Below are positions 3,201 through 50,400 of a stretch of DNA of 64,000 bases, piece after piece. The stretch is from the NCBI GenBank assembly GCA_000310025.1, contig FN648536.1, positions 78,946 to 142,945 on the forward strand. The letters run 5' to 3'. The stretch comes from Ectocarpus siliculosus. Lineage: Eukaryota; Sar; Phaeophyceae; Ectocarpales; Ectocarpaceae. The notes under the pieces are model-generated. The model worked only from the letters and a program-made list of their open reading frames with translations. It was not told the DNA's origin and did not search any database. Positions within the stretch are counted from its first letter, which is position 1. Each line of letters begins with the position of its first letter. The translations under genes and the position numbers were made by a program.

Positions 3201-4232
3201 TGTAGGTCTTGTGGGTGCTGCTGCTGTGCAGGCCCTCGCCGCTGTTGGCCTCTTCGTCTGGTTGGATGTCGTCAGCCGCGCATGCGGCTGCCCATCGGTG
3301 CTACCCAATCACCCTCGACAAAGTCGTTAACGCTAGCGTGTTGGATAAACCGGGTAGGCCGAAGCTTGTAGGTTTGTGGAGAAAGGCTACTCGGCCAGTG
3401 AGGGCCGAGATGGGAAAGTCTTGTATTAGAGAGAAGAGGGAACAGCAGAGAACACAAGAAGGCGAGGAACAGAAGAGTGCATCACCACACCTACCCGTCA
3501 CGCAATTCAGATCACTCATCGGATCTCCGAAGAAACCAAGCAGAAACTCCCTGTTCCTCCGCAATCTACCACCTGCAATCTCCGTAGATCCATGCCTCTT
3601 ATTCAACCACATTACTATGCTACGAGTATATCTTACAGTCCATATCACAGTGTCGGCCAGCTCACTAAACACTGCTGTGTTCGCCTTCTGGTTTGTGCTT
3701 CAGGACGCCACTGATGCAGACGAGCAGTTCATGGCCTTTACCATGATCTCAGACAAGTACTTGCTGCGCACATCTCCAGATGAGGTCAATATCTCTAGCG
3801 CCACCAGCAAGCACGTGGCTGCTTTCAGACCAAGGTAGGTGGTGAACAAGCTCCTCACGTACATGGTCGGAATCCAGCGCTTTGTTTAGGTGCGATATGG
3901 AATAGCGCAAAGCGCACAGCGAGTAGACTGATGTCACCGCTGATCATCACGGCCTGGTTAGCCCAGCTCGTTGGGATCATAGTTGTGCGCTGTATCTCAC
4001 CCGCTTCGCTCGTTTCCCTGGTGCTAAGCACTGTGAGGATTGGGGCACACGCGGTTGGGTTTTAGTTTGTCGAGCACGTTTCTGAAAACAACCGAAACCT
4101 GCAGGGAGATGTTCGATCAGCTCGCCGTCGACGCAAGGGCGAGCATTCTCCAGGAACCACTCAACGACGTCGTACGGATGCTCGAGCAAAATCTATGGTC
4201 CAGATTCATGAAACACGTGGCTCTCGAGAACC
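230..4232 (+). CDS. RGS-domain protein, three internal exons of a partial gene
   Basis: RGS domains speed GTP hydrolysis by G-alpha subunits at the membrane. Exon a ends at 412 (its start, 230-251, is uncertain), exon b is 3704-3834 and exon c 4105-4232. Junctions agree in phase: ATG|gtgagc with cag|GAC (phase 0), then CCA-AG|gtaggt with cag|G-GAG (phase 2); exon c closes at AAC-C|gtgagt. The joined frame reads like an RGS bundle: RFEHYCKTNLCLESWDFLI, then the TSPDEVNISSATSK block typical of the central helices, then a last helix with LEQNLWSRFM. Amino- and carboxyl-terminal exons were not found; the 5' part may lie left of the window. The intron 413-3703 is long because an LTR element sits in it. 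The RGS call rests on pattern recognition. Confidence 0.72.
491..789 (+). repeat. Left LTR
   Basis: This 299-bp terminal repeat starts TGTTGGATAAAC and ends ATATCTTACA. It is preceded by GTCCA, the left copy of the target-site duplication. Confidence 0.88.
3339..3637 (+). repeat. Right LTR
   Basis: This is a near-identical partner of the repeat at 491-789 and is followed directly by GTCCA, the right copy of the target-site duplication. Confidence 0.88.
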
Positions 4233-5254
4233 GTGAGTTGCTCCTTGGCACGGTGTGTGGGATGTTTAGTCTGTGTTATCCATTCCGACATGCAACATCT
4301 ATGGTTTAGGTCGTCCAACGTATTTGGTACAAATTTGTTCCTGCGTTCAGCCGATTGGGACTACCGCCGTGGATAAATCTGGGTCATTGTAAGCGTGCAT
4401 CCATCTCTGGTCCGCATCAGGGTCATGTTCGATACCATGACCTCTCTGATATGGGGTTATCATTGATGCCATGGTAATGACTTTGGACGCTGTTTGAAAG
4501 CACCTCGTTGCCGAGAGCAGGAGCTGCGTCACCTTTTGGTTGTGCATGAAAGTCGTCAGACCGCATGGTGTTGATGCATGTGCCGGCAAAATTATACCCT
4601 TTGCGACATGCACCAGGTTCGACTATTGCGCCATCACGTACTCCCATCCACCCTAGTCATCGTCGTCCAGAACCCTGCGATCCAGACCTCTAACCCCAAC
4701 TCCACCTCGTCGTAATCTACTTGCCTTAATCAGTTATGACAAGGTTGACCCCTATGCGCCCACTCGACGAAGAATTTGATTGTTGCCGTTCGCCAGCGTG
4801 CTTTTGAAATCGTCAACAGCTAGCTCCAATCGCTCGAGGTGACAACGAACTCATGGAACTCATGTCAGCATCCTCGATGCAGATTAGATCTGGACCGTTG
4901 TCGATGTGTCGGCAAATGGAATGATTCCGGAAAACGCAATCACTGGCTGGTCTTGAAGACTTGGAGTCGGGTTTGACACTACCATCTTCAACCTCGACGT
5001 CTCCAAGACTTGCTACTTGGCGCGTACTCACCCGTCAAAGGAGCACTACAATGAAAAGAGGGTTCGTTGCACGGCTTGAGGCCAAATGTGCGATTGGACC
5101 TGCATGTTATACACACACACCCAGCCACCACACTCCTTGTTTGGGGTTTCGTCGCTTGGCAAGGACGTTGTAGAACACGCCGATCGCTTACTGAGTTCGT
5201 CAACCAGATTGCCGGGGGGAGGGCGTTGCCTTTTCGGTTTTCGTTTGCGGTATC
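4233..5254. other. Stretch without a recognised gene
   Basis: Downstream of the last RGS exon seen. Only short open frames on both strands, none with motifs or phase-matched splice sites that I could join to the RGS exons. Further RGS-gene exons could be hidden here. Confidence 0.4.
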
Positions 5255-5705
5255 CATGATGGTGGCCGAGTAGATCATGTTGTGCGGGGTCGAGAACCCT
5301 CACTCCGCGCAAAAAAGGGGAATGATCGCACCACGCACCACGCACCACGCACCCCGTTGTTCTAGATTGGCCAAGCACCCTCGAGGTACAGCAGTTGAAC
5401 ACTACAGCTGTCTCTGGAAGCTATGTGAAAACACATGAAAATATGTTTATTGAGCCGTTCGCAGGTGTCATCCGTATGCATGGAGTATAAGCACGAGATA
5501 CCGAACACCCTTAGCAGGATGCAGCGCACCCTCCATGCGACTCGCCGAATACCTCACGGCGCTTCGCGTTTGGTGATTTGCTAGTCTGGTCCGGTGAAAG
5601 CCCGGCGTGCTCCGTCCCGGCTTTGTAGGGATGCGACGAGCGAGGTGGTCAAACGGCTACGGCATGCACGGCTGTGAGTACACCCGCCCGCCCTCCCATA
5701 TGGTG
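5255..5705 (+). mobile_element. SINE-like repeat with tRNA-like 3' module (copy 1)
   Basis: The reverse complement of this stretch aligns along its length with 17521-17930, with shared blocks such as CCCCGCACAACATGATCTAC, TACGGATGAC, AGGTATTCGG and CCCTACAAAGCCGGGACGG, plus several length differences. Near its 3' end lies GGTGGTCAAACGGCTACGG, then GGCATGC, then GAGTACACCC and a C-rich tail: an arrangement like a tRNA 5' half with a box-A-like motif. No coding potential. It is probably a non-autonomous retroposon; similarity to a tRNA is by eye only. Confidence 0.6.
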
Positions 5706-5779
5706 GCTTCTGCCGAGGGAGAAAAAGAACAAAACCTAGCCAAGGAAATCAGACTAGAAATACATACTGAAAGAAGGAA

Positions 5780-6020
5780 TAGGGTTCAAGGAGCACCTAC
5801 ATGAACCAATGGATGCAGGGAGTAAGCTGAAGATCAAACTTAGGACTGGGGGCACAGCCGTCGACGACGTAAGCGGTGACGACGAGTTCAATTGCAAATA
5901 AATGCGGCTCCGAGGGCGAAGACCGGGTTCATGCAGTTGCGGAACGCTCGTTGTACGACAAGGAGAGAGAAATGTACACGACTACTGAAGCTCGGAGTAC
6001 AGAGAGATATTTGAGGCAGC
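5780..6020 (+). mobile_element. LINE fragment, C-terminal coding scrap
   Basis: This stretch resembles the 3' coding part of the LINE at 22466-23310 (in reverse complement), for example the shared AATGGATGCAGGGA block, the segment coding for the Cys/His zinc-like motif, and the following acidic helix. The frame is heavily decayed. The tRNA-like tail of that LINE family is not seen after it. It directly abuts the SINE-like repeat, so one may have landed beside the other. Confidence 0.65.
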
Positions 6021-7303
6021 AATAGCCAGGAGAGGACAGTAGCTTACTGGGGCACCACAAGTGAAGCAACACACAAGATTTTCCAGTCTCGGCCCGCCTT
6101 GGCGGAGCTGTGCCTGTTCTCCAACACACAACGGGATTTGACGGCGACGGCAAGGAATGACGGAGGAGCCATAACGGCGTGATCGACGAAGACGGCCGGC
6201 CCCCCAAAGACCACCTGAGCGACCCGATCGGACCCGAAGAAACTACCAGGCAAAGGTTCAAGTAACACACCCTGACTGAACTGACGTCAACTCAACTTCA
6301 CCATGCCCACGGCACAACAAACCACCCATCCCTCCACACCACATCCCAACATCAATCCGATGCCAAACTAGATTTGGTCTGTCGCGGCCCTTCGAAACCG
6401 GCCAAAATCGATTTGCGAACCTCCGTTGTAGCCGTTGAGTAAGCCGCGAGTCTCCCCCTGCCTGAAATATGAGTTGGTTATTATGTGGCGCTCTGGAATC
6501 ACTTTGAGTTGAAACGGCCCGTTGCACGGAGGCCGGCGGCATTCCGTCAACTCGACGAGGCGAGCCGTGAGACTGCGGGCTTAAGAGATTTTGGTCACCC
6601 TTGGTCACCGCCAATAAGGCACGGCCCGGAAGTTCGTGAGCATAGAGAAAATCGTTGTCATGTGTTGTGACAATTTTCCCGGTCGCATTTCTACTCTTTG
6701 ATGGTGCTGCTGAGACTCCAATTTGGAATTGGGAAAAAGCTGCTTCCAAGATGTGTCTTCTAGCGATCTAGCGTAGAACTGCTGTATTCAGAGGGCATAT
6801 TAGTGGGGACAGAAACCCGATCCCGTAGGGGGCTTGAAAATATTGGTACGATACAGTTTCTTAGTGGTTTGCATGCACGTTGCCAGCGGCTTCACTAATC
6901 TCTTCCCTTGATCGGGAACACTGTTTTGATCATCTCTACGAACGCCGGACGAACGATTTGACCTGAAAGCCGCTGGCCATACTCGGATCGACTTCACGCT
7001 CAGGAGTCAAAGTGGGCAATAAACTCTCAATCTCCTACATTAGTGCGACAGACCTTAAGGAGGGAATCGTTGGAATTTCGGCTACTTTCTCGGTCTCCAC
7101 ATGTCGCTAATCGCTTGTCTGAAGAGCCACATGAAGGGGCATCCCTTCGCTCTGCGAGTCAACAAAAACCAGCATGGGTTTCCGCTGAACAGAGCAGAGT
7201 GCTGTTGCGAAATCATCAACGCTATTCCGCGCGTGGCCCAAGCCATCGGGCCATCGGGACGGGGGTACAGTACCAAAACCAGGCCTTCGATGGCGCCCGC
7301 ACG
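6021..7303. other. Stretch without a recognised gene
   Basis: Only short overlapping frames on both strands. No domain, splice-consistent exon pair or repeat was recognised. Confidence 0.4.
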
Positions 7304-11164: not shown

Positions 11165-14100
11165 TCAGTAGTCGAGAAAGGCAAACAAGCCAGCCACCAC
11201 CTTGTTCCTATCGGCAGGTACCTTGGAAACATCATCCAGGATAAAGAACGAGAAAGGCAAACAAGCCAGCCACCACCTTGTTCCTATCGGCAGGTACCTT
11301 GGAAACATCATCCAGGATAAAGAAACGTGCTCCTGAGTGATAAACACATACCATCGACTCACCGAGCGTACTTTAGGCGGAACGACTCCCGCGCCCCGTA
11401 GCTAGGAGCGACTTTGTTCGAGAACATGTCAATCCTGGACCAAGAAAGCGAGGGGGGCGAAGGGAGGTTTTTTTCCTTTGAGATCGGGGGATCCATGGGT
11501 TCGCTGGGAGCACCGTCGACGTGTTGGTTGCCTGCACAGCCCGCATGTATATACATGCAAGGCCCAACTCAGGAAACATTTTTGGCTTCTCGACGGCGCG
11601 TATTTTCTCAGAAACGTCGTAGAAACGTTCAGGCGACCGGATTTACACATTGAAAGCTCGTGAACATTTGGGGAGGCCAAATTGGTGTCTCCTCACCCGT
11701 CCAGTTCCTCCTCGAACGCGGTCATGTCGTTGGAGTCGAACAACCGGTCTTGCTGGGGCGTCTCGCACTGGCAAGGGGTAGACAAGACGCATGGCGCGCC
11801 CACACGAGCACACCCATCATCGCGGAGGGCATCACACGGAGGGAGGAGTGGGGGGGGGCGTACTCTGAGGTTTCGCATGCCTTAGCGGTTAGAGGAGCAT
11901 TGACCACGCGTCCTCGAGAGGACAGAGAATTGTTCCCACCGGAGCATTGTTCCCACAGGACCGATCACCGATGGCCAACCGTTCCTTTTTACTTTCTATG
12001 GGTGGCTCGTAAACGTGGGAGGAGTGGGGCACCAACACAGACGCGGCAGCCAGGGGCGACAAGAGAACATTAAACTAAAATCAGTTCATTGTGCAACATC
12101 TTTGGAGATGTCTGACGATATCATCATACACAACGAGGGTGCGTGAAGATGAAAATTCACCCGAATTTGGCCAGGACGAGACCACACTTCAAACATGGAG
12201 ATGGGCACAGCTCATGCAGAGGGAATGCATACACGCAGCGGGGCACTAGCGCAGAAGACTGGGTGGTGCCAAAGCAATCTCTTGCTCGCGGTACACAACA
12301 CCACCCCCCAACCTTCCCAGAAAATCAGACCCATCAGCATTCAGACAAGGGTACACGCACACACGACGATGCAGAAATGTTTATTGCAGATGGTCAACAT
12401 GCCGCATCCCCGGAGCCGATCCACGACTACATTCTTGCCGCACGGCCGTTGATGTCGCAAGGGTCTCACTCAAAGGCCATTCGAACGAAACCAAAGGTCC
12501 AGCTCGTGGGGTACAATGACACTTGTCTCTATGGCGAAAGTGCTATCGCGGTTCTTGGACACCCATTAAGCAGGCGATTTTTCGGAAACGGTTCTTACTC
12601 GAGCCGACCAATGGGGGCGTTCTTGGCACCTATTCAGTCTGATCTTAACCTGATAGTGATTTATCACGCAAACCGATCCGTGTACAGTACGCAGGGCGCA
12701 AAAAACAGAAGAACAGACCGTTACAAGTTTTTAGCGTACTCTCATTGTCCATTGCCTCATTCGAGGCAGCACGGCTACGACCTATGTATCTACCAACCCG
12801 TCAATCCACCGGCGGTGGGCGTGCCGCTGACCTTGATGACATCGACTTCCGAATATTATGGTGCCGCGAAAGCTCAAGAAGACCGCAAAACATGAGGCGT
12901 AGTAGAGAAAGCTCGGGCGGGCTGCCGTTCACAAGTTGCTGTTACTCCTGCCTACTCGCGACGTATGCATAGATGCCGAAAATCAAACAGGCCGCACGCG
13001 TGAAATATCAAAGCAATCAAACGGCCCGACAGGGCTGAAAGAGCACAAATTCCACGATCCCACCAAACGCAATCCCCTTTCCGGCACCACGCGAAGATTT
13101 TCGTGAAGCTGCCTGTTTGATCCGACAAGGGTTAGGTTTTCATCCATGTCCAACAGCGCTCTGGTTGCGTGCGAGTGCCGCCGCTTGAACAAAAGCAAAA
13201 AAAAAAAGGGGGAAGCCGAAAGAAAACGTGCATCACTCAGGTGCAAAATGCGGAAAAAGTGGCAATCCACTTTAGACTTACAAACTTCTGCAGCTCTTCC
13301 CGCTCTTGGTAGATGCTCTCCGGCATGTAGGTGAGGCGAGTCACAGGCGCCTCCTTCCTACCACCAATCCCGAACAGCGCCTGGGCCGGGCCGGCCGAGG
13401 CGGTCATCATCATCACGGCAGCGGCAACACCGATTAAGGCCACCGACATCCTTCGGCGCCACGCAGCGACTCGCGCCCTCGTCCCCTTGCTGAGATGCCC
13501 AGAACGCGTCACAGGGGGGGAGAACGAGTTAGAGGCTGAAGGAAGGCCAGATGCAAAGCAAGACACAAAAATACGTTTGTTTTTCCCGTTCTCCCAGCGG
13601 TAATGAGCGCCAAGCAACAGGGGGATGCTGTTTGGATCGGGGTGGGTTCGCCTAGGGTACCCGGCGTACCTGACGGTGAGACTTGCATACACCTAGCTGT
13701 TGGTTGCTCCTAGTGTACACCCAGCCGCCGCCGCCGCGGCCATAGGCAGCTCCTCGCCAGCCACCACAAACGGACCAACCGGACCGCCGTGCAACTCAAC
13801 CATGACATCACCCAACAACCCCGCCTGAAACCACCCATCGCACCAGACGAACCGGACAAGAAACCAAGAGACCACTGCAAAAGAGTCCGTCGCCAGTCGA
13901 ACTCTGAATCATAGTCCCAGCAAAACAACAACCCCGTCCAAACCACAAAGCACTCGAGGGCACCCTATCGGGACTGCGTCAGGAGGGAAACATGGACACG
14001 AACCAAACCCGCCTCACGCAAAGCTTTCCGCCGAAAAAAAACGTTTCCATGGCAAATCCAGCACTAGCAACTGTGGAGGGCGAGGAGCGATCACCGTTTC

Positions 14101-16052
14101 TCGCAAATTAACATGACTGATGCCGGGAAATGGAGCCCTCCCCCCGCTAGCTACTCACATTTGACCAGCGCGAGAATAGTCTAATGGCTGGAGAGACAGC
14201 CCAAGATGATCAAAAATCAACTCAAACTCCCAGAGCACCCACAACAGGCACACGCCACTCAGCGGAACATCGTGTCTCCGATCTCGAAGCACTCCTGCCA
14301 TGCCCCCAAATGTTGGAAGGTCGAACGACAACCTCCCAACAATAAAGCTAGTCCGGGAAGAACTGGAAACGTCTACACTCTTTGGCGGAAACGGCCACAA
14401 CTCTTTCTACGTCGTCTCCAAACACATGGCAGGCAGTAGCAAGCACACACGAGCGCAGAGCACGACTGCGTGAAACACGGTACACGACATGTATCGGGGG
14501 CAGGGGGGGGGCGCACCCCGTCATTAGGTGGTTAACAATCACCTGGACTTGCTGACCCCGCGCTCCACCGCTTGCCGCACAAACCGCAAAACCGCCGCAG
14601 GCCGAGCGAAGCGGGTGCGCCGCGCTGCAACAGCCTCCCCCTCCCCACCTCCCTCCTTCCCACCGACGGCGCCCCCGTTGCGCCCTCCCTCGTTCATCCC
14701 CCCTTCACCTTCCCGGAAGCCCAACCTCCGTGTCGACATAGCTTTCCGGTTCCTACCGTGGAATGCCGGCGTGCTTGATAGGGAGGCCCGGAACGTCATT
14801 CCGCCCGCAGGTCGACCTCTGGGCGGGCTACTACAGCAAGCGGGGGCGAATGCCTGGCGGAGGCCGAGAGGGGCAGGGGATTGTACCACATCAGTAGGGT
14901 TTCCTTGGGGTCTGTTGTGATGTGACTTTGCTCGTACTTTGGAGACAAACTCTTCTCTGCTGACCCGTACGGTGAACGGGAGGGGAAACTATTGTCTGGA
15001 CTGAGTTCAGGTTGGACGTTGTCCGAGTGAACGGCGGCGGATGCGAACCCCCGGCTGCTTGGAGCCTACAAGTATGCATGCGAACAGCACCCCATGCAGT
15101 GCGGCACTTTCGTAGAATAGCACTGCCCCTGCTGTGGTGCAGGCATCCGCTTGCCGAGGTACGCCGGCGAGCTCGGAATGGGTATGAATGTGCATGATGA
15201 ATCTAGACTAGATTGCTACATGCGATGAGGTAAATGCGAAAATCAGTCGTACCCATTGCGGTAAAACAGCAATCATGTTCTTATGAACTGGCGCTTTCGT
15301 CTACACCAGTGTTCGGGTGTGTTGTCGATGCTTCAAAACCGGCATGCGGTTTGCGAAGAAAAACACTGGATGCCAAAGAGGCGTCGCCATTGAATGTGGG
15401 TGAGCACCAATGTAAACGCCACCTGTGGCTGAGCTCAATTGTTAGACATTCATTCCACAGCAGTTGCGACCAATGGTGCTGTGCAGGGACACCAAATGAG
15501 ATACAAGAGAGCAGTAGACGCCTGAGCTATACATGTAGACAGCGCCCACCCTCGGCGATCCCAAGATGCAAGATGTTCCCTGCATGCTCATGAGAGAGCA
15601 AGCAGCAACGGCCACAACACATAAATCGCTACCCAACATTGGCGGCGATCCCAAGATGTGAGTGAGTGGGTTCCCCCCTGTCAACATGTGGAGAGTACAC
15701 AGCCGGCTGGAAGCCAGACGTTATGGGATTGGAGCATGCAACACATGATGCGAGCCAAACTACAACTTATCAGGTGCGCCGCACGCACGGCCCGACACGT
15801 TGCAACAAGACAGAGAGACAGACAGCCAACCCACCAGCGAATATGTACCGACACATGCAAGCGACGGACTGCATCCACCCTACATGTGCTGGAAACAAGC
15901 TTTGAGGGCACACTTACCGACGTAGTCGCATGCACTGGTCGCCCTGGAGCCAGCCCCCGGCCCGCGCCTACAACAAACGCATCCCCTGGACCGCAGATCA
16001 ACGCAATCACGACCGCTGCCGCAAGGACAGAGCGTACAATCTTCGTCATCAT
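11165..16052 (-). CDS. Plastid (thylakoid-lumen) protein, PsbQ-like, at least five exons
   Basis: Exons: 16052-15918, about 13485-13282, 11767-11697, 11434-11363, and a last exon within 11332-11165. Exon 1 starts MMTKIVRSVLAAAVVIALI and ends its hydrophobic core with GDAFVVG, a heterokont signal peptide plus transit peptide. Exon 2 adds AAWRRRMSVALIGVAAAV...AQA-LFG, which looks like a second, thylakoid-transfer signal. Exons 3-5 give EEELDG-IDMFSNK, ARESFRLKYAR and a helix like FFILDDVSKVPADRNKVV, resembling the last helices of PsbQ, an extrinsic photosystem II subunit. Joins 1-2, 2-3 and 3-4 agree in phase. The last does not: exon 4 ends in phase 2, while the FFILDD frame needs phase 1. A 76-bp tandem duplication lies exactly there. 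The family call is tentative; the targeting call is firmer. Confidence 0.55.
11174..11325. repeat. 76-bp tandem duplication at the 3' end of the PsbQ-like gene
   Basis: Two essentially identical 76-bp units, starting at 11174 and 11250, both contain CAAGCCAGCCACCACC and CAGGTACCTTGG. On the minus strand each codes for the C-terminal helix of the neighbouring gene. The period is not a multiple of three, so read-through changes frame between units. Confidence 0.9.
11850..12015 (-). mobile_element. 5'-truncated LINE 3' end with poly(C) terminus
   Basis: The sequence matches the extreme 3' end of the LINE at 22466-23310, including the end of its coding frame, GACCGATCACCGATGGCCAA, CGCGTCCTCGAGAGGAC and the tRNA-like module, ending on the minus strand in GAGTACGC followed by nine C. 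It carries a short internal insertion relative to that copy. It sits in the intron between exons 2 and 3 of the PsbQ-like gene, on the same strand as the gene. Confidence 0.75.
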
Positions 16053-17520
16053 CTGGCCGGAAGACAGGCCCGCAAGCAGTCCGACACAGCTCAAGCCAAG
16101 ATAGACTCGATATCTGCAACGAGGCTAGGCGAGAAAAGCGGCAACGGCGCGCTCTCTCGGCTCCTGCCTGCTGTGCTGCTGCTGCTCTTCACATGGCATT
16201 ATGGGGGGGGTCGTGATATTGTAAGGGGGGTGGGCCACCAACTATTGTACATCCGCGGGGTGCGGTTGCGGCATGATCGACGTGCATGAAAAATGTCGTG
16301 CCGCTTTTCTTTGTTTTGTGCCATGGTGTGGCAATCCACAACAGCACGGGCGCTTGGAAACAGGGCAAAGCGTGGGCACGAGTAGAAAATCCAGCCACAT
16401 CACTTGAGCGGGGTGGTCTCACGCGGGGTCTCGCCGATTTCCCTCTGAGGTAAGGTTGGTTTCGTGATCGCCTTTGATCCAATTTTTCCAATTTTTTGCC
16501 CTGAAAACCCTGTCAGGATACAGCAGAGCAGCGGAGAGAAACAAACACGGAACAAAAACACCGCAAGGACACACACCAACGCAGCGGCGTGGCTTGTACC
16601 CAGGTTCTCAGTCGTGGTGATGGGGTAGTTGTCGGTAAGGGCGGAGAGTGTTGGCCAGCATTTATGTAGCCGTTGCTGTGGCGGTGCGTGCAGGGGTGGG
16701 AGCTCTTTGTGCGTGCTGGAGGTCCAAGGGCCGCTCATTATCCTCTTCTCGTTCAAGTCAATGTTGTACAAGTTACTCGACTGCTTTAGCGCCACTTCGT
16801 TGGTAAAAGACAAGATTCCTCCTCTACCATGGGCATAGAGGCGCAGGAAAGCACCTGCGTCTCTGCACCAGCTGCTGTCTGCATGACCATTGACTTTGGG
16901 CGTAGGCATACTTGCACATCAGTTTTGTTTTGAAGTGGCATCGAGCCAAATGGTTAAATGTGCTCACAAGGAAGACAATCCAGTTGAGTGGATGCAGCGT
17001 TGCAGACCAATGCGCTTCATGTTTGCTTGACAAGGGTGTGGACAGCACACATTTTCCAAACCTTCTACCTTTGTGATCTAACCGCCGGTTCGGCAAGAAG
17101 CAAGCACCCGTCAGTGAGGCACGTTTATTTACAAGGAGAGACGGGAAGGCTGATTGCCGACGGTACCTTGACCCCTTCACCTGGTGAAAAAAGACGACGC
17201 AACGATATTCGTCGCCCGGCCTGGCTACGTGTTTTCGCCCTCGCTTCGCATACGAATGCACTGAACTTACAGCATGAGGGATTGACTTCCGTAGTCACCC
17301 CGGCTCCCTGGCAAGCGGAGTTTGTTGCAGATCTATTGCGGCTTCTGGAACACGCTATAGCCAGAGAGCAAAGCACACACGACTGGGTATATTGTACGCA
17401 CCGGGAACCGGTGAGAGACTTGCCACGGCCTCCTGGGTTGAGATGCTGTAGAATTCTAACTCGGTGTAGCGCAGCGCCGACGACACAGAAGGACCTCCCA
17501 TGTAGACTAGAGAGGGGAGG
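16053..17520. other. Stretch without a recognised gene
   Basis: Upstream of the PsbQ-like start, this should contain its promoter, but no core element was recognised. A 255-codon frame (16988-17755, +) runs into the following repeat and is not credible as a gene. Confidence 0.4.
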
Positions 17521-17930
17521 AGGGGGGGGGGGTGTACTCATAGTCGCGCATACCGTAGTCGCTAGACCATTGACCTCGCATCCCTACAAAGCCGGGACGG
17601 GCACGACGGGTTCTCACCGGACCAGGCTCTCACATCACCAAGCGCGAAGCACCGTGAGGTATTCGGTGGGTCGCATGACGGGTGCGTTGCATCCTGCAAA
17701 GGATGTTCGGCATCTTGTGCATGCTTCCTTGCGTACGGATGACCGCTGCGTATGACTTAATTTATTTTCTGGTGCTTTCACTTCCAGAGACAGTTGTAAG
17801 CACTGCTGTGTAACTGCTTAACCAATTTAGCCCAACGTGGTGCGATCACCCCCCGGAGTGAAGGTTCTCGACCCCGCACAACATGATCTACTCGACCACC
17901 ATTATGTTGTTGTTGTCTTCACATTAAAAA
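17521..17930 (-). mobile_element. SINE-like repeat with tRNA-like 3' module (copy 2)
   Basis: Inverted relative to 5255-5705 and similar over its length. Reading the minus strand, it ends with GGTCAATGGTCTAGCGACTA, GGTATGC, GAGTACACC and a run of C (plus-strand G-run near 17522-17532). The start is marked by the shared TCGACCCCGCACAACATGAT block. No reading frame. Confidence 0.65.
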
Positions 17931-18410
17931 CCGTTCCGTTCTCTCTGCTCACCTTCTTCTGCCCGTACTAGTCTAACGCTTGGCTGGGTCGATTCCCGTG
18001 GTCACAGGCTAACTTACCCAAAAAAAGGAATACGAAAATAAAACGGACCCGAAGGGTCCGCTAGCCAATAAAAGTCAACGACAGATAGTCTAGACCACTC
18101 CGCTCGCCTCTCTGTACGCTATGCGAGGTAACCCTATAGATTGGAAGAAGATAGAAAAAGTAAAACGAAAAAGAAAAAGAAAAAGAACGGGAAAAAGAAA
18201 AAGGAAAAGCAAAAGAAGAAGAAAGGAATAGAGCAGATGTAGAGAAGCAAAGGGAAAGAGAACGACACAGACAGAGAAAGACACACGCCTCAGCGACAAA
18301 CAACAAACAAACAAACAGAACAACCCAAAACAACACAAGATAAAGCGGGCCACTCGAGCCCGCTCATGCACGTCATCGCTCGCGGGGGGTTGGTGCAATG
18401 GTGCAGTGCT
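17931..18410. repeat. Spacer with a purine-rich tract
   Basis: No gene seen. From about 18148 to 18330 the plus strand is almost all A and G, in GAAAAAGAAAAAG-like units, a low-complexity tract immediately downstream of the 3' end of the LINE. Confidence 0.7.
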
Positions 18411-21400
18411 GGGGGGGGGGGGGGGGGGAGATAAGTCAAGCAAGAGGTTCATTTCGGCACGGTGTTTCGCGCCACTCGGCCAGCCTCTTCGTGTTTCCTG
18501 CCTTTCCTCGCCGTCTCGTCCGCCTGCTGTACCCCTCCCACCCCCGTGGTTGTTGCCGTGTCCGTGTTGTCGGGCTTTTTGTTTCGTTTGAGCGCTCGTT
18601 GTCGGCTAGCCTCCTCTTCCTTCTTGTGCCAGGAGGCCATGAACCTCTTAGCTCCCTGCAGTACCCCTGTATGCCACGGTACCCCCCCGTTTACCTTCGC
18701 TGCTTCCATCCAAGTTGTTTCCGGGACTCGAAAGAAGCATGGCTCGGCGTCCGTAGATCCGTGCTCTGCTTCGAACATCTTGAGGTCGTCCTTCAGGCAC
18801 ATCTGCCAGTTTTGCTCCGGTTTCCCTCTGCCTGGGCCCTCCCCCCCCACCAGTTCGCCAAGCATCACCCTTTTCGGGAGTCGTCCGCCTGGCTACCTTA
18901 CCAGCGCTCCCGCGAACAGCAGGCGCCGTTGCCGGATAGTGGTTTCCACGCTCTGGCACCCTACCCTCTTCAGGGTCTGGGCGTAGGAAAGCTGCCGGTA
19001 GGTGCCCTTCTTGCGTTGGTAACCGATAACTCGCAGGAGCAGTCGGTGGTGTATCGTCCGCAACGTCCGGTATTGGTCTTAACGTGGGGCCCATGTTATG
19101 CAGCCGTACAGCAGTGCCTCCATCGCCTCGGCCTGGAGCAGGCGAGTCTTCAGTCGGAACGGTGCTTTCGGCCTGTCGACGAGCTCCTGGCTATATCTCC
19201 TGACGCATGCCCACGCCGTTCTGCTCCGGTATTGATCTCACGGGTGAGGTCGCCATGTTCGTTGACGAGGCCACCTAGGTACCGGAATTCAGGCGTCTGG
19301 GCATACCTCTGCCCTGCTGCCTCGATGATCAGCGGTGGCGGCGGGGGGGGCGGTGGTGTTGTTGTGTGCTTCTCCTTTGCGCGCATCAAGAACGTCTCCG
19401 TCTTCTTCTCCGATACCGTCAGCCCGAACTCCCGAACACCTCCACGATGACGTTCATCATTCTCGCCAGTCTTTCGGCAGACCTCGATACGACGCCGGCG
19501 TCATCGGCATACAGCATCCCCCATACCGCCCTCCACACTCGGTCAAGTGGTGTCCTCGCCCCTGCTCCCGTCTCCTCCTCCAGGTACACGAGGTTCTCCA
19601 GAATAACACCATCCTCGCTGAATCGAATGGCAACGACCTCGATGACCGCGGCGAAGAAGATATTGAACAGCAGTGGGGACAGTGCACACCCTTGTCGTAG
19701 GCCTTGTGTGACCAAGAACCAGGCCGAAAACTCTCCGTCGTCCATCCGCACCCGCGCCCGCATTCCGTCGTGGAATTGGCGGATGACGGCGATCATCTCA
19801 TCACGAATCCCGGCCCTGGCCAGGACCTTCCACAGCAGCTCTCGGTCCACCGAATCATACGCCTTCTTCAGGTCGACGAAGCACATGTAGAGTGGTATTT
19901 TCTTTTTCCGCCCCAACTCCTGGAGTCGGCGCACGACGAACAGCATGTCGATGGTGGATCGCCCGGGTCGCAACCCGCATTGTTCCTCCGGGAGGATGTT
20001 GTTGGTTTCGCAGAAGGCGCTTAGGCGGTTGGTGATAATCTTGATGGGGACCTTGCCTACGTGAGATAGGAGCGAGATACCCCTGACTTTGTTGCAGTTG
20101 AACCGGTTACCCTTCTTGTACAACACCTTGATGGTTGCGTCCTTCCACTCTTGGGAGATCTTTCCTCCGTTCCACACCTCAACGAGGGTGCCACGGAGGT
20201 GCTCCAGGACGATAGGTTTCTCGTCGTCGGCGTCGATCTTGAGCAATTCTGCAGGAAGGAGTCATTGCCGGGTGCCTTCCAGTTCTGCAGTCCTTTCGTT
20301 GCCCGTTCCACTTCCTCGAGGTCTGGCACCGCTCCCAAGCGTCGAGTGCCACGTGTCGCCGGTCGCTGTGTCACTTGTTCGATGATGTCTGGGTTCAGGG
20401 TGGGGGACTTGGTGTTGAGGAGGGTGCCGAAGAATCTCGCCCATCGCTGGAATATGTCGTTCTTTCTCCGGAGCAGCACGCCATTCTCGTCCGCAACGGG
20501 CTGCTGTCCTCCCGCTTGTCTCCCACTGAGCCCCACTGATCTCTTGAGGTGTTGGTAGAGGCCTCGCACATCGCGGTCCTTGTAGATCGCTTCGAGTCCC
20601 GTCACATATTTGTCCAGGTGGGCATATATGCCCGTTTCGACTGCTGCGGCCACTCCCTTACACGCTGCTTTCAGGGCCCTCCACGATGTTGTGTTCAACT
20701 TGTTCTTCATCGCTCGGCGCGCTTCCCGCCGTTCGGTGAGGGCCTCCTCCAATGCTGCTCTTGTCTCAGGGGTCTCACACCATTCCTGCGTGTGTCGTCT
20801 CCGCGGTTCCTCGGGTAGTATCGCCCTCGCCGCTTCGAGGAGAGCATTGGTGAACTCGGTCGCCTTCTCCGGGGTGGTGGTCACTCGTTCGCCCTGCTGG
20901 TGGTCGAGGTTGAGGAGGAACCGCGTAGTCACCTCCCATCGCGTTGCTTCGACCTGCAGTTCCCGTCGGTCGAATTGCTTCTGTTTCGGTTTGGTCCGGA
21001 CTGCTCGGTTGTGGGCAAGCCTGCCACCGAGGTTGACGGTGGCTATCACCATGTTGTGATCTGAGTCCGCCTTGACTGGGTATACCGGCTGGGGGATGAC
21101 AACCATGTTAGACACTCGGCCGCGGTGTGTCTGCCGCGTTAGAATGTAGTCGAGGCGCCAGCGGTCGGTCCCTGACGCACCGTTGGAGGTGTGCCATATT
21201 CCACCCTTGCGTGTCTCGAAGAACGTGTTCGCGAGTGCTAGCTTGTTTCTCGCTGCGAAGGTCAGCAGTAGTCTGCCATTCTCGTTTAGCTCATCACGCC
21301 CGTGTATCCCCATGACGCCCTCGTCTTCCCCATCCATCCTCTCTCCCGTCCGAGCATTGGCGTCCATCAGGATATACACGCACTCTTTGGAGGGAATCCT

Positions 21401-22465
21401 CCGCACGAGATTGTCAAGTTTTACCCAGAACTCTGTCTTGCTGTCAGCGGCAGCGACCTCGGTTGGGGCGTACGCAGCAACGAAGTTGACAGCTCCGCGG
21501 TGGCCCCTCATCTCAAACCTCATGGCCATGAGGCGTTCATCGACATAGTTCGTGGTGAAAGTGGAGGTCTTGCACAGTGACTCTTTACCGGCTTTTCCCA
21601 CACCGTGGATATTACGCTTCTCCGTACCACAGCAGAGCACTCGGAAACCCGCTGCTGCGAACTCCGTTTGACCTGGTCTCCTGGTCTCCTGTAGCCCTAC
21701 CACCGATACATCTTGCTTCGCTGCCTCGTGTAGGATATTGAAGGCTCGCCCGTATCCATTCTTCCCGTTTACAGCCAGAGTCCGCACATTCCAGCTTGCT
21801 ACCCTAAGAGGTCGACCCTGCTGTCTCTCTCGGGCGGTGCGTGCTGCTCTCTTAGCCAGCCTACGCTTCGCCCGTCCCCTCCTTTTCCTCTTTCGTGCCA
21901 TCTTTTTTGTCATTGTTTAATTGTTTTGCGGGCTCTCGGGCTAACGTACAAGTTACCCCGGTGCTTGCCTTTTGTCCCAGCGAGTTGTCTTGTCCCGGAG
22001 CGGTGCGGCCCTCCAGCTCTGGACCGTCTCCTTTCCCCTCTCTGGTGCATATCCCCACGGTGGTCACCGTGATATCTGCTGCTGCATGGCCCCGGTGTCC
22101 AAGCCGGGGCGTCTGGATTTAGTCTCATTTGCAGCTACCCAAGTCGGCTAGGCCGCGAGCTACCCCGATCTTACGACAGCGGTAGTTCCCGGCCGCCAAA
22201 CTCAGGATCCCCTTCTGATCAGTGCTAGGGACTGTGTATCCGTCTTTGTTGGGTGGTGTTTCGAGGTCTAAGTCCACTTACGGACCTCGACCCACCCCAG
22301 CAGGGAGCGTGGCAGGCCGGGAATTGGTCGACTTTAGCGTTACTGCAAAAAGCCGGAGAAAAACAAAGAAGCGGTAACCTGGTTGCCAAGCTCACGAAGT
22401 GATCGGCTTGTTTTACAACGTCGTTGCCAAGCGACGAAAATCCAACCCCGATGGCAAACACCTAC
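18411..22465 (-). mobile_element. LINE (non-LTR retrotransposon) with APE-type endonuclease and reverse transcriptase, frameshifted
   Basis: The ATG at 21913 opens a basic leader and an endonuclease domain with SWNVRTL, GLQETRRPGQ, AYAPTE, DANARTGERMDG, DYILTR and SDHNMVIATVN. The reverse transcriptase follows: [61 protein letters not shown] and YADDAG. A C-terminal region with GELVGGEGPGRGKPEQNW ends at a stop at 18449. Frames change near 20262 (between GNDS and LPAELLKID), near 19425 (before [10 protein letters not shown]) and at least once more between 19240 and 18870, so this copy cannot make one protein. On the minus strand it ends about 20 bp past the stop in a run of 18 C (plus 18411-18428). 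The 5' limit is uncertain; 21914-22465 is probably 5' UTR. RTE-like or a related endonuclease-bearing clade. Confidence 0.9.
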
Positions 22466-23310
22466 GGGGGGGGGGGGGCGTACTCTTATGTTTTGCATGC
22501 CTTGGCGGTTAGACCATTGACCACGCGTCCTCGAGAGGACGGAGCATTGTTCCCACAGGACCGATCACCGATGGCCAATCGTTCCTTCCTACTTCCAAAG
22601 GTGGCTCAAAAATGTCTTCCCTAGTCTGTCTATCCTAACGATATCCCTTCCCGCCTTTTCGAACCACTTCCTACTCCCCAGTACAGCTACCGTCCTCTCC
22701 TCTCTATTGTATGCCTGAAACATCTCCCTGTACGTCCCTTGTATCTTTCGCTGATCAGTCATGTTCACTTCCCTCTCCTCTTCGTACCACGGACATTCCG
22801 CGACTACATGAACACGGTCTTCCCATTCGAAGCCGCAATCACATTTGAACTTGTCGTCCTCGTCGTCTACCGTCCTATATCTTTGTCGACGTTCTCGAAG
22901 GCCTATGTCCCCGGTCCTGAATTTGACCTTAAGCTTTGTCCCTGCATCCATTGGCCCATGTAGGTATATCCTTGCACCCTTTTCCTTCTTTCAACATTCC
23001 GTACACTTCTAGACCCTCCTTATCCTTGGTGTCTTTCCTTAGATTCTGTTTTTCTCTCTCGGCACAAGCAACAGATTTCTTCTCCTTGAACCCCTGCATA
23101 TCCTCCGTTTCCAGCGTTTCTTCTTCGTCGATGTCTAACCCCTTCCATACGTCATCTACAACCTTGACCCATTCCGTGGGTTGTCTACCCCTCTTTTTGT
23201 TTGCCCACTTCGCCTCCCATACTATTCTCGGCAACCTCTCCTCTCCCATCCCGCACATGCGATACTGCCATGTCAGCTTCCTTGTGTCTCTTCCCGACCG
23301 TGGGGATTAG
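22466..23310 (-). mobile_element. Second LINE, 3' part only, with tRNA-like poly(C) end
   Basis: The frame contains RLPRIVWEAKWANKKRGRQP and, after a frame change near 22940, a Cys/His cluster (CDCGFEWEDRVHVVAECPWY) typical of LINE C-termini, ending with the stop at 22589. The 3' UTR holds GGACCGATCACCGATGGCCAA-like sequence (reverse complement), then GGTCAATGGTCTA, GGCATGC and GAGTACGC, closing in 13 C (plus 22466-22478). It abuts the 5' side of the larger LINE in the same orientation. The reverse transcriptase core is missing, so the copy is 5'-truncated. Confidence 0.82.
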
Positions 23311-24461
23311 ATCCCCAATTCTGCCCTGACGGCTGCATTACTTGTGCGCTCGTCGGGGGGCGGAATAGTCTAGAGGTTTCAATGTGAAAACACGTGATGA
23401 AACTCTTGCTGCGGGAAATTAGACCAGCCTTACCCGGAATCAATCGCTTTGATGAGCGGTCCATATGCCCTTGCAGAGCGCAACCGTAGTGGATCACCGC
23501 CCTGCAGCGATGCAACAGTCAGTGGAGTGTGCCATTGTAGCCGAGTCTAGTGTCGTACGGCGTTTCTTTCGGTAATTAAAATCGGCTGAAGTTCTACAAG
23601 CGAGAGATCCATCTTCTCGCCGAGGTCGGGCCGGCTCTTTGAGGTCCTACATCATCCCCAGTAAGCAGCACGAATCAAGGGCCATGAGGTAGTGATGCAT
23701 TTAAGTTGCCTGTTCACTGCAATGGGTGATGTTCCGTCCTAGCTCCATTTCCGGCTCTGCTTCACCGGCTCGGTTGATTGGCAAAATTGATGTCGATCCA
23801 ACGAGTGCAGCGCTGTACACTGCCATCTACAATACTGCTGTTCGTTGTTACACAGCAATGCTGGTGCTGTGCCTCGCGAGCGCGACTCCAAGAGCAAGAA
23901 CCTTTTCGAAAGTGAAGCAATTGTGGCAGCACCTTTTTGGTGCTATACACGGGTGACCAGGGCGTATCTCTACAGCGCCAACGTTGTCCTTAGGAACGGT
24001 TCGCTGCGTTCCCCCAGTCACTCTGTTCGAAATCGATCTCGTCCAGCCACCAAATTCTCCACGGCTGCTTGACGCTTGTGTTGCGACATCTGCATTTGTA
24101 TGTCTTTTGCGCCAGAGATGGACACCGTGACATGGTCGGGGAGATTCACAGGCCCGGTTGCAGGATTGGGGGCAAAGAATAGGTGGGGGGAGCACAAGGA
24201 CTCCATCGCGGGTCGCGCCACGCCTATGCCCATGCCCATGCCCGTCCACATTGCGATCGACGTAGGGGCCAACACGACGACGAACTTGGGGTACGCGGGG
24301 CTTGACTACGCGGCCTTGTCCAAGAGACCGAGCCTGAATCTCGGGATGCAGGTCACGCAAATGACCATATCGGGCTGCCCTCGCCAGGGAACTAGCGCTG
24401 TGAGCACGTGTTTCCATGCGGTGGTGGCTAACTCCGTGCTTCCAGAGTAGGTGGAGCACGG
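23311..24461. other. Stretch without a firm gene
   Basis: Both strands are open over 23848-24459 (minus) and 24076-24450 (plus) with low-complexity coding in both; neither shows motifs or splice joins that settle it. Confidence 0.35.
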
Positions 24462-26904: not shown

Positions 26905-28063
26905 TCCCAAAAAACTCACTTTTCAGGATGCCCAAAAATCGGGCTGGAAAAAAGTCCCGCCGTTCTTACAGTGAGCCGGATTCCTGAGGCGGATTCTTGG
27001 GGGGTGGGTGTAGATCAATCCAGACGACATTATCATCGAGTGCGACCTGAGTTCTTGGCGTATCGCTCCCATCAAGGGCTCCCAGCAATCCTACGCTGAA
27101 GGGCTTGCTATTCTGCACGCTGGCTGTTGATGGTCACTCGGCACGCGTGCGTAAAAAAAACAAAATCGCACCGCACCGAGCATGGAGACGCCGAAACAGG
27201 CCAAACCGCCACGAGACAGCAAAAAGAGTCGCTTTTTGTCAGAGAGGGGAGGACGCCGCAACTGATTTCTCGCTCCCTAGGCCACCGATCGAAGCCAGAC
27301 CAGTCAGGGCGTGCTCTCTGTTCCTTGCTCTCTGCCGGAGTAGACTTGCTCGGCAGCGCGTACTCTGGGTCGACGGAGAGAAGCATGCGCGTGGTGCCCG
27401 TTGCTTTTTCGAACTGTGATTTTTTTCTGGTCTGCTTCACTTGAGAAAAGAGTAATGTGTTGAAGGCCTGGAAACAATTTTCAACAGACAGCTTGTGTAC
27501 ACGCAGACGACAATTTCAAATGATTGTATCAACGAGCTGCTGAGCAAATCTACTCCGGCAGAGAGCAAGGAACAGAGAGCACGTCCTGACTGGTCTGGCT
27601 TCGATCGGTGGCCAGAAATCAATTGCGGTGTCCTCCCGTCTCTGACAAAAAGCGGCTCTTTTTGCTGTCTCGTGGCGGTTTGGCCTGTTTCGGCGTCTCC
27701 ATGCTTGGTGTGATGCGATATGATTTTTTTACGCACGCTTGCCGAGCGGCCATCAACAGCCAGCGTGCAGAACAGCAAGCCCTTCAGCGTAGGGTTGCTG
27801 GGAGCCCTTGATGGGAGAGATACGTCAAGAACTCAGGTCGCACTCGCCGATTATGTCGTCTGGGTTCACGCAGCGGTGAATTTTGTGGGATGAGAAATCT
27901 GGGTGGGCACCATCCTGATTTTTTCCAAACTTTTCGGGTGGAGGCCACCCAAATAGCTTAACCCGGATTTTGTCGACCCAAAAAACTTGAAGAATCTGGC
28001 TGTATAAGAAGCCGGATTTCTGCCCATTCTGAAAAGTGAAGCTTTTTGGGAAAGGAATGCAGG
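26905..28063. repeat. Long inverted repeat (about 330-bp arms)
   Basis: Plus 27021-27358 pairs with the reverse complement of 27533-27863, sharing blocks such as TGCGACCTGAGTTCTTG, CAAGGGCTCCCAGCAA, TACGCTGAAGGGCTTGCT and GAAGCCAGACCAGTCAGG. Weaker symmetry continues outward to about 26905 and 28063 (CTTTCCCAAAAA...CACTTTTCAG on both sides). The unpaired centre is about 175 bp. No protein motif is seen; matching frames on the two strands only reflect the symmetry. It could be a foldback DNA element, an inverted duplication, or a hairpin RNA precursor. Confidence 0.85.
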
Positions 28064-47483: not shown

Positions 47484-50400
47484 TCAAATGTCTTTCCCCC
47501 CCCAAACTTCTTTGAAGCAGTCCTGGTCCATCGCCAGGGCAGGCTTTCGTTTCTTTCCTTGCCCGAGAACCTTGGCAGGTACTCCGACCGCCACGCATCT
47601 GCGACAGGTGCGCGCACAGTCAACGTATACACACGAAAAAAAAAAAAGGCAAACAAGGCACAGGGGATGGATGGGGTCGGACAATTGCACTCAATCTTGG
47701 TGTTAGGAGAAAAAAGCGGTGCTTTGCCGTGGTTGGCGTGGCCTGCGGTGAGGTCACGAAACAGGTCTGTCTGTACTGGCACAATAAAACGATCCCGAGG
47801 GCAACTTCTTGGAAAGTCAAAACTCGAAAGCCGCCGTCACCGCCGCACCTCTCTGGCAGATCCGTCGCTACCAAGGACCCCGCGCCGATCTGCGTTCCTT
47901 TCCCGACCTTGATGTTCCCCAGGAGGCAGGCCCCCGCACCAATCAGCACGCCGTTGCCAATCTGGGGAGGGGAACCACCCGCGGGTCCATCATCGGTTTT
48001 CAGCGATAAAGTAGCGTGTCGCGAGCGCGCACCCAGCCGAACGGGGACGACAGAGAGAAGGGGGGCGGCCGCCATAGCGACCCCGGAAGGGCGAACGGGA
48101 CACTGCTGTCAATGATGTAGCGGGTTGGCCAAGTGGATGGGTTGGGGTATGTATGCAACCTTGCTTGCTGTGCTTGATGTTAATAGTAGTGTGCAACGTC
48201 TGCGCCGGGAGTGCTGGCGAGACTCTGCTGTCATAGTGGTGGCTGGGTTGGCCAGTGAACGGTTGGGGTACATGTGTGCAACGTTGCTGCCTACCGGCGG
48301 AGAAACGGAAACAGAAGGAGACAGATAGTACCGGGGAGGCCTGAGGCCTGCCTCGAAAAAGCTGCCTTGCAACACCCGGTGCATGTGAAACAGGCGCCGC
48401 CCCGATTCCTGCCTGTGGGTGTTGTTCAATCAACCTTGTCCGTGCGTGTCTTGGAGTTGCGCATCTGCATGTGTGCGCGTGTCTTTAGCTACTATTGCGC
48501 GGGGCGGACGGCAGAAAAAGACGGTTCTCTTTGCTCGTTCGAAAATTATGACGCCCGCACAGGTACTCGAGATACGACAACGCAAGCTGTTGTACGAGTT
48601 GATACATGCGCGTTTTTCGTCGAACAGGGATTGGAGTTGACACGAGCGAGAGCAAATTGCGACGACGCAAAGCCACCCGAGTCCAAACAGAGGCAAAACC
48701 GTGAGAGCCCCAGAGGGTACACCAAACCCCACACCACACCACACCGCACCGCACCGCACCGCACCGCACCGCACCGCACCATACCGTACCATACCATACC
48801 CACCATACCACACACCACACCACGCCACACCGCACCACACCATACCGTACCATACCCACCATACCACACACCACACCACACAACACGACACCACACCACC
48901 GGACGGACCTTAGGGTGTCGATCCGCGCTCTTGACCCCGGAACCCCCGAGAGTGACGCGGTGAAGCATGGACACGTCATCGCCAACAACCGCAGTCTCGC
49001 CCACCACAATGCCTGTGCCGTGGTCGATGAACACGCCCTCCCCGAACTTGGCACCGGGGTGTAGGTCTATCTGGAACTCCTGCGCGACCTGGGGTGAGGG
49101 GGGTTGGGGGGAAGGGAAAAAGTCAAACACGGACACAACCGCAGCGAACGGCAGGGAACAGACGATATTTAAACCCGTGCGTCTGTGCGCGCCCGCTCAT
49201 GCTACCTGGCTCTGCAGGTAGAAGGCGAGCGCATGCCGGCCGGTATGGTAAAGCCAGTGCGCCACGCGGTGCGTCTGCAGCGCCTGGAACCCCTTGAAGT
49301 ACAGGAGGCAGTCGTGGTACGAGTCGCACGCCGGATCCCGCTCGCTGCGAGAACGCGCACGCGGCAGCAGCGACGGCCGCGCCAACGGGGGGGGTATCAT
49401 GCAGGCCGGAGGGGCGAGGCGGAAGGTGCCACGGGAAAGGGTTATGTGCTGTGGGATGAAGGGGGGGGGGGGGGGGTTCCTGTGCCTCGCAGAAATGTCA
49501 GTACACGTTGACACACGAGCACCTTCGGAAACAACGTCCAAAACGACAAACCTCAAACCCCACCAATGGTAGGCACGCCGGATCTCGCTTAGTTGTCTAT
49601 GCATGTACGCGTAAGTCAAAATGCTAAGCACCATGGGGTGCTGGAAGGAGAGCTGGCGTTACAAGCCCATGCACGAGCAGCCGCCGTAGCGGTGGCGGCG
49701 ACTGCTGCTGCTGCAGCGGCCACCGCCGTTGTCGTCGCTGCCGCCATTGTCTATGCCGCTTGGAGCCGAACCCAAACACAGAGGCGACCTCTTTACTCGC
49801 ACAACGGGTGGCGGCGTGCCACACCGCACCCGAACGCGGACACACAGCACAGACCCCAGGGGCGCGATGAACGAACCCTCCCGCAGCAGACCGAAACGGC
49901 ACAAATCTCACCGCACTGCGATGATGTCTCGTCGGAGAGTCCGTCGCAAGGGAGTCCCCACGTCGGCGAAGTACTCTCTCACGAGCGCCTGCACCTGAGT
50001 GCTAAGCATATGCGGCCCGGCAAGCTGAAAAAAACATGGATTTGATGCGCACATACCGGAGAACGACACACGGGGCGTAGGCGGTCGCCAACGTCGCAAA
50101 AAGAACATGAGGGACGGTTGGTGCTGTAGTTTGTTGTTGATAATCATCCACGGAGGACGAGAGAAAGCGGGGTGGCCTCAAGTCGAAGAAACCGCAGACT
50201 CGGATACAACGAGTGTGGGGGGAAAAACGAAACGACGGGGACCAAAGCCGACAGTCGCGGCTCCGATGCAAAAGCGTACCTTATTAGAGGGGGATCCGCT
50301 GTCAGAGGGTCGAAATCGGTTGTCACGCCGTCATAGTACGTCTTTCTTGGGTACCCTCGTATTCCGGTACAAGAAGGGGCGCCGGCACAAGGACTAAGAG

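Follow-up and report, generated by a model that had tools for sequence, protein, structure and literature searches.

Why do retroelements of different kinds in the genome of the brown alga Ectocarpus siliculosus finish with the same short sequence followed by a run of C, and is that run a tail of the elements or part of the DNA into which they insert? The question is raised by a 64,000-nucleotide stretch of contig FN648536.1 (assembly GCA_000310025.1, positions 78,946 to 142,945 of the forward strand), called the window below. A shared 3′ core, GGTCAATGGTCTA..GGCATGC..GAGTACRC and then C, is present at all four of the sites concerned. It ends an abundant family resembling short interspersed nuclear elements (SINEs), which we call alpha, and two families of long interspersed nuclear elements (LINEs), beta and gamma. 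We consider it likely that this signature is the 3′ recognition end of the beta/gamma LINE lineage, acquired by alpha to use the LINE machinery, and that the elements insert into pre-existing C-runs.

A preliminary description of the window had reported the same 3′ signature and C-run at four places, and all four were recovered and located exactly. The span that it gave, 11850-22478, fits only in part: two whole cores lie inside it, a third reaches it by its C-run alone, and the site at 5647 is outside. Its division into two LINE 3′ ends (11859 and 22479) and two SINE-like bodies (5647 and 17532) is correct. The two bodies, which it took to be unrelated, turned out to belong to one family, alpha. 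The site at 5647 on the plus strand is degenerate, its core reading GGTCAAACGGCTA and its C-run being interrupted, CCGCCCGCCCTCCC. The elements and their flanks are as follows.

5141..5683, plus strand: alpha copy, near full length and diverged (anchored BLASTN extent 543 nt; multiple alignment)
5647-5683, plus strand: degenerate shared core of this alpha copy; the C-rich stretch 5684-5697 follows
11841..11858, minus strand: C-run (9 C) and 3′ target-site duplication copy, flanking the beta copy 11859..12016
11859..12016, minus strand: 5′-truncated beta copy of ~158 nt, with the end of the open reading frame (ORF) and the 3′ end (159-nt homology; broken ORF-end peptide legible in pieces)
11859-11905, minus strand: shared core of this ~158-nt beta copy, followed by the C-run
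12017..12029, minus strand: 5′ target-site duplication copy CCCCACTCCTCCC, flanking the same beta copy
17532..17905, minus strand: alpha 3′ part, split by a nested LINE; other alpha copies are uninterrupted at this site
17532-17575, minus strand: shared core of the split alpha; the C-run 17522-17531 follows
17906..22338, minus strand: a different LINE, nested in alpha, with endonuclease-like and reverse transcriptase (RT) frames and an ACA-repeat 3′ end; breakpoints approximate
18411..18428, minus strand: C18 run inside the nested LINE, a paralogous empty site (locus L017 has a related LINE with an alpha insertion at this run)
22339..22465, minus strand: alpha 5′ part belonging to the same split element; its start directly adjoins the C-run of the next beta copy
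22466..22478, minus strand: C13 run, the end of that beta copy and the landing site of alpha
22479..23350, minus strand: 5′-truncated beta copy (ORF end and 3′ end), with the ORF-end peptide RVVNGLTAKACKT and its stop running through the core
22479-22522, minus strand: shared core of this beta copy, legible as ORF end, followed by the C13 run

The core recurs far beyond chance. In the 189-Mb assembly that was searched (492 contigs), its first 13 letters, GGTCAATGGTCTA, have 1,265 plus 1,274, or 2,539, exact matches, and whole cores with up to three mismatches number 610 for the beta type and 2,260 for the alpha type; the control count is zero in each case. Viral contigs gave no exact match to a 28-nt piece taken from the alpha core.

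Alpha is a non-autonomous element of about 520-600 nt. Anchored BLASTN extents, together with 14 long copies in a multiple alignment, define it as about 520-550 nt, beginning (C)GGTGTTTGCCATCGGG and ending in the core. The alignment shows internal T-runs and, in 6 of the 14 copies, an additional unit of some 70 nt at the 5′ end. The window, with its two alpha copies, yielded no Rfam family at the gathering score and no tRNA; the RNA polymerase III promoter, derived from tRNA, 7SL or 5S, that is expected of a SINE in the strict sense was therefore not recognised, a diverged promoter being possible. The copy at 5141..5683 matches its best relatives at 73-76% and has no clear target duplication in its flanks. 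Shortly downstream of it, at 5768-6052 on the plus strand, lies a diverged beta-type LINE fragment (75% to L020). At six loci (L011, L015, L016, L017, L018 and L024) alpha carries its first ~70 nt repeated at the 5′ end, with a C-run before the repeat.

Beta and gamma are the LINE side of the relationship. The beta copy at locus L069 has a 905-amino-acid open frame with RT and the gamma copy at L070 one of 1,088 amino acids, also with RT; both copies appear 5′-truncated. Their proteins are 55% identical over 883 residues, and when a 124-residue piece of the beta RT was used as a query, 150 of 562 candidates were scored; identities of 92-98% were frequent, and another set lay around 70%. Wherever a beta or gamma copy was read, the core is coding, forming the in-frame end of the ORF together with its stop codon. 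The L069 frame ends in GRVVNGLTAKACKT and a stop, with the C-run 7 nt past it, and the L070 frame in GRVVNGQMTTASNK and a stop, with the C-run 5 nt past it; in the window copy at 22479, the core-spanning ORF end is in a different frame from the piece of ORF that precedes it. Of 896 aligned codons, beta and gamma have at most six identical in a row, and this stretch overlaps the start of the core. Moreover, third positions are identical at a rate of 0.75 in the last 20 aligned codons, compared with 0.41 overall, which suggests that the core is constrained at the nucleotide level as well as through its protein.

A very short 3′ untranslated region after the ORF is a trait of RTE-type LINEs, seen also in L069 and L070, whose C-runs begin 5-7 nt past the stop. 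In a passage of PMC2887409, the 3′ end parts come directly after the stop codon. The fetched beta and gamma copies appear 5′-truncated; of the apurinic/apyrimidinic-type endonuclease that would lie N-terminal to the RT, gamma keeps a stretch that resembles the end, in which Pfam recognises nothing. Beta and gamma are probably of RTE-X type, a clade name that we borrow from their probable counterparts in PMC12477816.

When the alpha consensus was compared by BLASTN with one beta copy (L069) and one gamma copy (L070), significant matches were confined to the last 58-80 nt, at 76-83%. Alpha and beta/gamma are a LINE/SINE pair with unrelated bodies and a homologous 3′ terminus, so that the sharing of a 3′ end between LINEs and SINEs, as first described for the window, is upheld. 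By analogy with other such pairs, alpha would be mobilised by the LINE proteins; we claim no direction for the transfer of the module between them. The L069 locus holds a second core just upstream of its beta copy.

Chimeras between the alpha and beta cores are rare (6 and 5 places at up to three mismatches, some of them explainable by mutation). The clearest, at 327-412 on the minus strand of L047, has alpha upstream of a beta-type core and C-runs on both sides. Three further copies (L018_+3523, L041_+1380 and L013_-4843), with detected lengths of just 83-91 nt, differ in the loop of the core (GTTTACATGA or similar) and perhaps represent a fourth family.

The nature of the C-run was examined in individual copies. 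A fuzzy core search of the window and 20 loci of 10 kb gave 54 matches, of which seven were dropped by eye, their resemblance being limited to the fuzzy pattern. Removal of the same seven and of L042_-1412 left a set of 90 copies, reduced to 89 by the loss of L065_-368, which had no homologous partners, and to 86 for the junctions when three with less than 140 nt upstream were set aside. Loci L001-L008 lie outside the counts, and L069-L074 outside the 86 copies.

Of the 86 copies, 61 have a C-run of at least 5 at the 5′ junction, compared with 6 at position -60 and 6 at -100; runs of the other bases at the junction are few (G 2, A 2, T 5). Truncated copies begin at many places in the element, so the 5′ C-run cannot be element sequence. 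When the 480-700-nt length class is set aside, the run is present at the junction in 39 of the remaining 60 copies and at -100 in 3. By family, it is found in 40 of 52 alpha copies (control 5), 18 of 28 beta copies (control 1) and 3 of 6 others (control 0). The 3′ flank has a C-run of at least 6 in 71 of the 86, in place of the poly(A) tail of an L1-type LINE. Because the median run length is nine at both ends, the poly(C) appears to be largely target DNA. In most alpha and beta copies C is on the plus strand of the element, orientation being nearly fixed.

Sequence flanking the runs agrees with insertion into them. In a search confined to matches whose start is no more than ~14 nt from the core, 9 of 89 copies had ungapped flank matches scoring at least 15, compared with 1.0% of 1,059 mismatched pairs; seven of the nine start with C and two start one base ahead of the C-run. 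Where runs are present on both sides (67 copies), the flanks match for at least 5 nt past the C-run in 13, compared with 1.5% for flanks of different copies. At L014, a 24-nt duplication surrounds an insert of only ~50 nt. As to the proposed check of 3′ boundaries, the boundary coincides with a C-run, and target-site duplications are present in part of the copies.

No strong motif was found upstream of the C-run. At -14 to -6 of the run, T is weakly raised (0.30 vs 0.23; TTT in 8 of 61 vs 18 of 244) and G lowered (0.21 vs 0.27). With 61 of 86 copies in C-runs, the behaviour is a preference of about 70% and not that of a strictly site-specific LINE. The poly(C) terminus of the preliminary description survives in that a C-run does follow the core, but it is no mere tail, since C-runs with a median of nine flank both ends. 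The apparent C tail is largely landing site and not part of the element. At three loci, an element's C-run leads directly or after a short distance into a stretch of N (L028 near 1000, L034 after ~1424, L043 after ~1380), and C-runs may mark assembly gaps.

Alternatively, the RNA itself could end in poly(C), templated or made by slippage, and the C-run would be its true tail, with the 5′ C-runs arising from the clustering of copies in older tails and not from a preference of the endonuclease. The element may indeed supply some C, as in 13 clean duplications the median difference between the two runs is 2 in favour of the 3′ side, and some copies do sit in the tails of others. However, a recognised tail hosts only 5 of the 86 copies by rule (to which the window copy at 22465 and L069 are added by reading), yet 61 of the 86 have a 5′ C-run. 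Nor is the 3′ run longer overall: of the 61 copies, 26 have the longer run at the 3′ end and 28 at the 5′ end, the remaining 7 having equal runs. Moreover, L014_+8821, L018_+3523 and L045_+1425 have no core in the upstream flank examined. We therefore consider a genuine poly(C) tail unlikely as the source of the runs.

In a hand alignment, alpha, beta and gamma share a predicted closed multi-helix fold with a free C end and a closing stem GUGCUC/GAGUAC (one mispair in beta), and in a second stem one pair is changed on both sides (U-A vs C-G). The structure conservation index (SCI) of this three-family fold is 0.93, compared with a mean of 0.58 in column shuffles; none of 300 shuffles reached it and 2 of 300 reached its energy. 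An alignment by MAFFT, which offsets alpha against beta upstream of the core, was not used for covariation. A simple hairpin, GGYATGC/GTACRCC, was dropped, as by eye the letters of alpha, beta and gamma pair inconsistently in it. The prediction lends moderate support to a structured 3′ end, in which we see no evidence for tRNA descent.

The module had originally been called tRNA-like, and a tRNA-derived or tRNA-like 3′ end would be another form of recognition signal. We take the core to have the look of an A-box (TGGTCAATGG), and the three-family fold, a closed multi-helix with a free C end, also speaks for it. Nevertheless, a 3′ region each from beta and alpha gave no tRNA in Rfam at E<=10, ARAGORN gave none within the 64-kb window, and the core sequence is accounted for as the end of an ORF. 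Hence, tRNA descent of the core is largely refuted, and a tRNA-like signal in any form seems very improbable. The suggested folding check accordingly gave a mixed answer, with a multi-helix fold plausible across families, no gain over shuffles for single sequences, and no tRNA match.

One further complication is the LINE nested in the split alpha copy. Its endonuclease-like frame matches Pfam Exo_endo_phos at E 1.5e-4 and 22.1 bits, where the cut-off is 24.5; compared with the beta RT over 238 residues, its own RT has 34% identity. Two relatives elsewhere in the genome have open frames of 1,242 and 1,245 amino acids; their homology ends at the ACA repeat (only the ends were fetched), and these ends have no alpha match. 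We take this LINE to have inserted into alpha later and to stand outside the LINE/SINE pair. A single full-length LINE with alpha ends at 17532-22465 was rejected, given that the relatives end at the ACA repeat and that alpha copies cross the breakpoint. The idea that alpha arose from the 4.4-kb LINE at 17906-22338 by internal deletion, prompted by the alpha 5′ and 3′ parts that flank it in the window, can be dismissed, as both related LINE ends stop at the ACA repeat without an alpha match and other alpha copies continue straight across the breakpoint.

With insertion into C-runs and a shared recognition end as the preferred reading, a more specific mechanism can be outlined. The LINE enzyme would nick the G-rich strand of a C-run, and the freed ...GGGG-OH would anneal to the C residues that end the RNA (..GAGUACRCC), where reverse transcription would start. 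The RNA end would be recognised by the LINE protein as a folded element closed by GUGCUC/GAGUAC, a step with moderate support, and alpha would use the LINE protein, with recognition and use following the stringent-type LINE/SINE model as set out in part of PMC3747384. As the C-run is duplicated on insertion, C-runs would come to lie on both sides of a copy and be open to further insertions. It is possible, although we would stop short of calling it probable, that the LINE machinery is specialised in this way on homopolymer C-runs, with a G-run primer, a recognition RNA laid over the last codons, self-renewing sites and nested arrays, and that it is a main maker of C-runs in the genome. C-runs of at least 8 number 56,634 on both strands (28,216 and 28,418), compared with about 3,900 expected per strand by hand arithmetic for independent bases (C = 0.27, from the window composition); this excess alone proves little, because simple repeats commonly exceed such a model. 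There are 2,814 instances of GAGTA[ACG]N with 8 C directly behind it, compared with 31 for the reversed pattern; they account for about 5% of the C-runs of at least 8.

Several observations weigh against the reading that we prefer. No C-run of at least 5 is present at the estimated 5′ junction in 25 of the 86 copies, some of which reflect a wrong estimate (for example, the split window copy) and some of which are perhaps genuine. Neither of the two gamma copies in the set has a 5′ C-run, gamma copies being few and their ends poorly known. The duplication extends at least 5 nt past the run in only 13 of 67 copies; elsewhere it may consist of C only, which is indistinguishable from chance sharing of C, and C-runs are common in this genome, as the total of 56,634 shows. 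The loci for the copy analysis were mostly picked by an exact match to GGTCAATGGTCTA. As to the fold, its basis is three family sequences aligned by hand (two to five were used overall), and four sequences folded singly came out no better than shuffles (z -0.9 to 0.8). Beta and gamma alone have an SCI of 0.71, reached by 21 of 300 shuffles, and when two diverged variants are added the fold changes and the SCI is 0.76 (3 of 300). Some closing-stem pairs also mispair in beta and in the diverged variants.

Elements answering to this description are known from a related alga. According to the parts of PMC12477816 consulted, RTEX-N1_Ec32 of Ectocarpus sp. 7 is a non-autonomous element of ~600 bp with more than 6,000 copies, the most abundant single family there, whose 3′ end is conserved with the autonomous RTE-X LINEs RTEX-1_Ec32 and RTEX-2_Ec32 and whose 5′ region is of undetermined origin. 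Alpha is likewise an abundant non-autonomous element, of ~520-600 nt, with a 3′ end common to LINEs. By this description, alpha, beta and gamma are probably RTEX-N1_Ec32 and RTEX-1/2_Ec32 or close relatives. The main text of that paper contains neither 'poly' as a whole word nor 'c-rich', and the parts consulted do not mention a C tail, a C-run target or a coding 3′ core. The same parts describe the EsV-1-7 domain as having proliferated in brown algae (PMC12477816); in the genome analysed here, which is comparable in size to that of Ectocarpus sp. 7, it has at least 150 matches, compared with none in 14 control genomes, as befits a brown alga.

The pair also resembles stringent-type LINE/SINE pairs, which, in the passages available of PMC3747384, have a shared 3′ end, a terminal simple repeat and a 3′ stem, as here, and in which the RTE and CR1 clades predominate. 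The 3′ repeats given there for flowering-plant RTE and green-algal RTEX elements are (TTG)n, (TTGATG)n, (CA)n, (CAA)n, (CCAT)n and others, whereas (C)n is absent from that table passage (PMC3747384). In Bov-B LINEs and Sauria SINEs, according to a section of PMC13295347, the first nucleotide of the target duplication agrees with a nucleotide of the 3′ repeat, as it does here, where it is C. However, Bov-B copies are rarely flanked by a target like the 3′ repeat, whereas most copies here are, and the T-stretch upstream in Bov-B and Sauria has as its counterpart only a far weaker rise of T, 6-14 nt upstream of the run (PMC13295347). Togen, found in (TG)n, is another case of simple-repeat targeting in the portion of PMC4640811 consulted; here the target is a homopolymer C-run, with a preference of ~70%. 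The target-specific non-LTR families treated in that portion belong mostly to the early-branched, Tx1 and R1 groups (PMC4640811). No C-run-targeting LINE was recognised in the titles and abstract openings of the open-access literature searched. The LINE/SINE pair is of a known kind; within it, the C-run target and the coding 3′ signal appear to be new.

On the role of LINE/SINE 3′ simple repeats in pairing with the nicked target, the section consulted of PMC13295347 reports no general consensus. In Ectocarpus, most of the copies examined have a target that agrees with the 3′ end, and copies number in the thousands, so this pairing question becomes directly testable. Our findings also provide a partner LINE, and a rule of insertion, for a family that is probably more abundant than any other single transposable-element family of Ectocarpus or a close relative, and they imply that C-runs beside such elements should be read as landing sites, not simply as tails.

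The window contains other repeats. A long inverted repeat at 27017-27866, with arms of 146, 120 and 82 nt that are 91-95% complementary and in nearly continuous order, looks like a large hairpin or foldback element. A 300-nt direct repeat (491-790 and 3339-3638) has 99% identity, and 11173-11324 is an exact tandem duplication of 76 nt. On the minus strand at about 47620-49140, ORF pieces that we take, from their hexapeptide-repeat motifs, to resemble a serine acetyltransferase have a short ACACC/GCACC-type repeat between them at 48732-48878.

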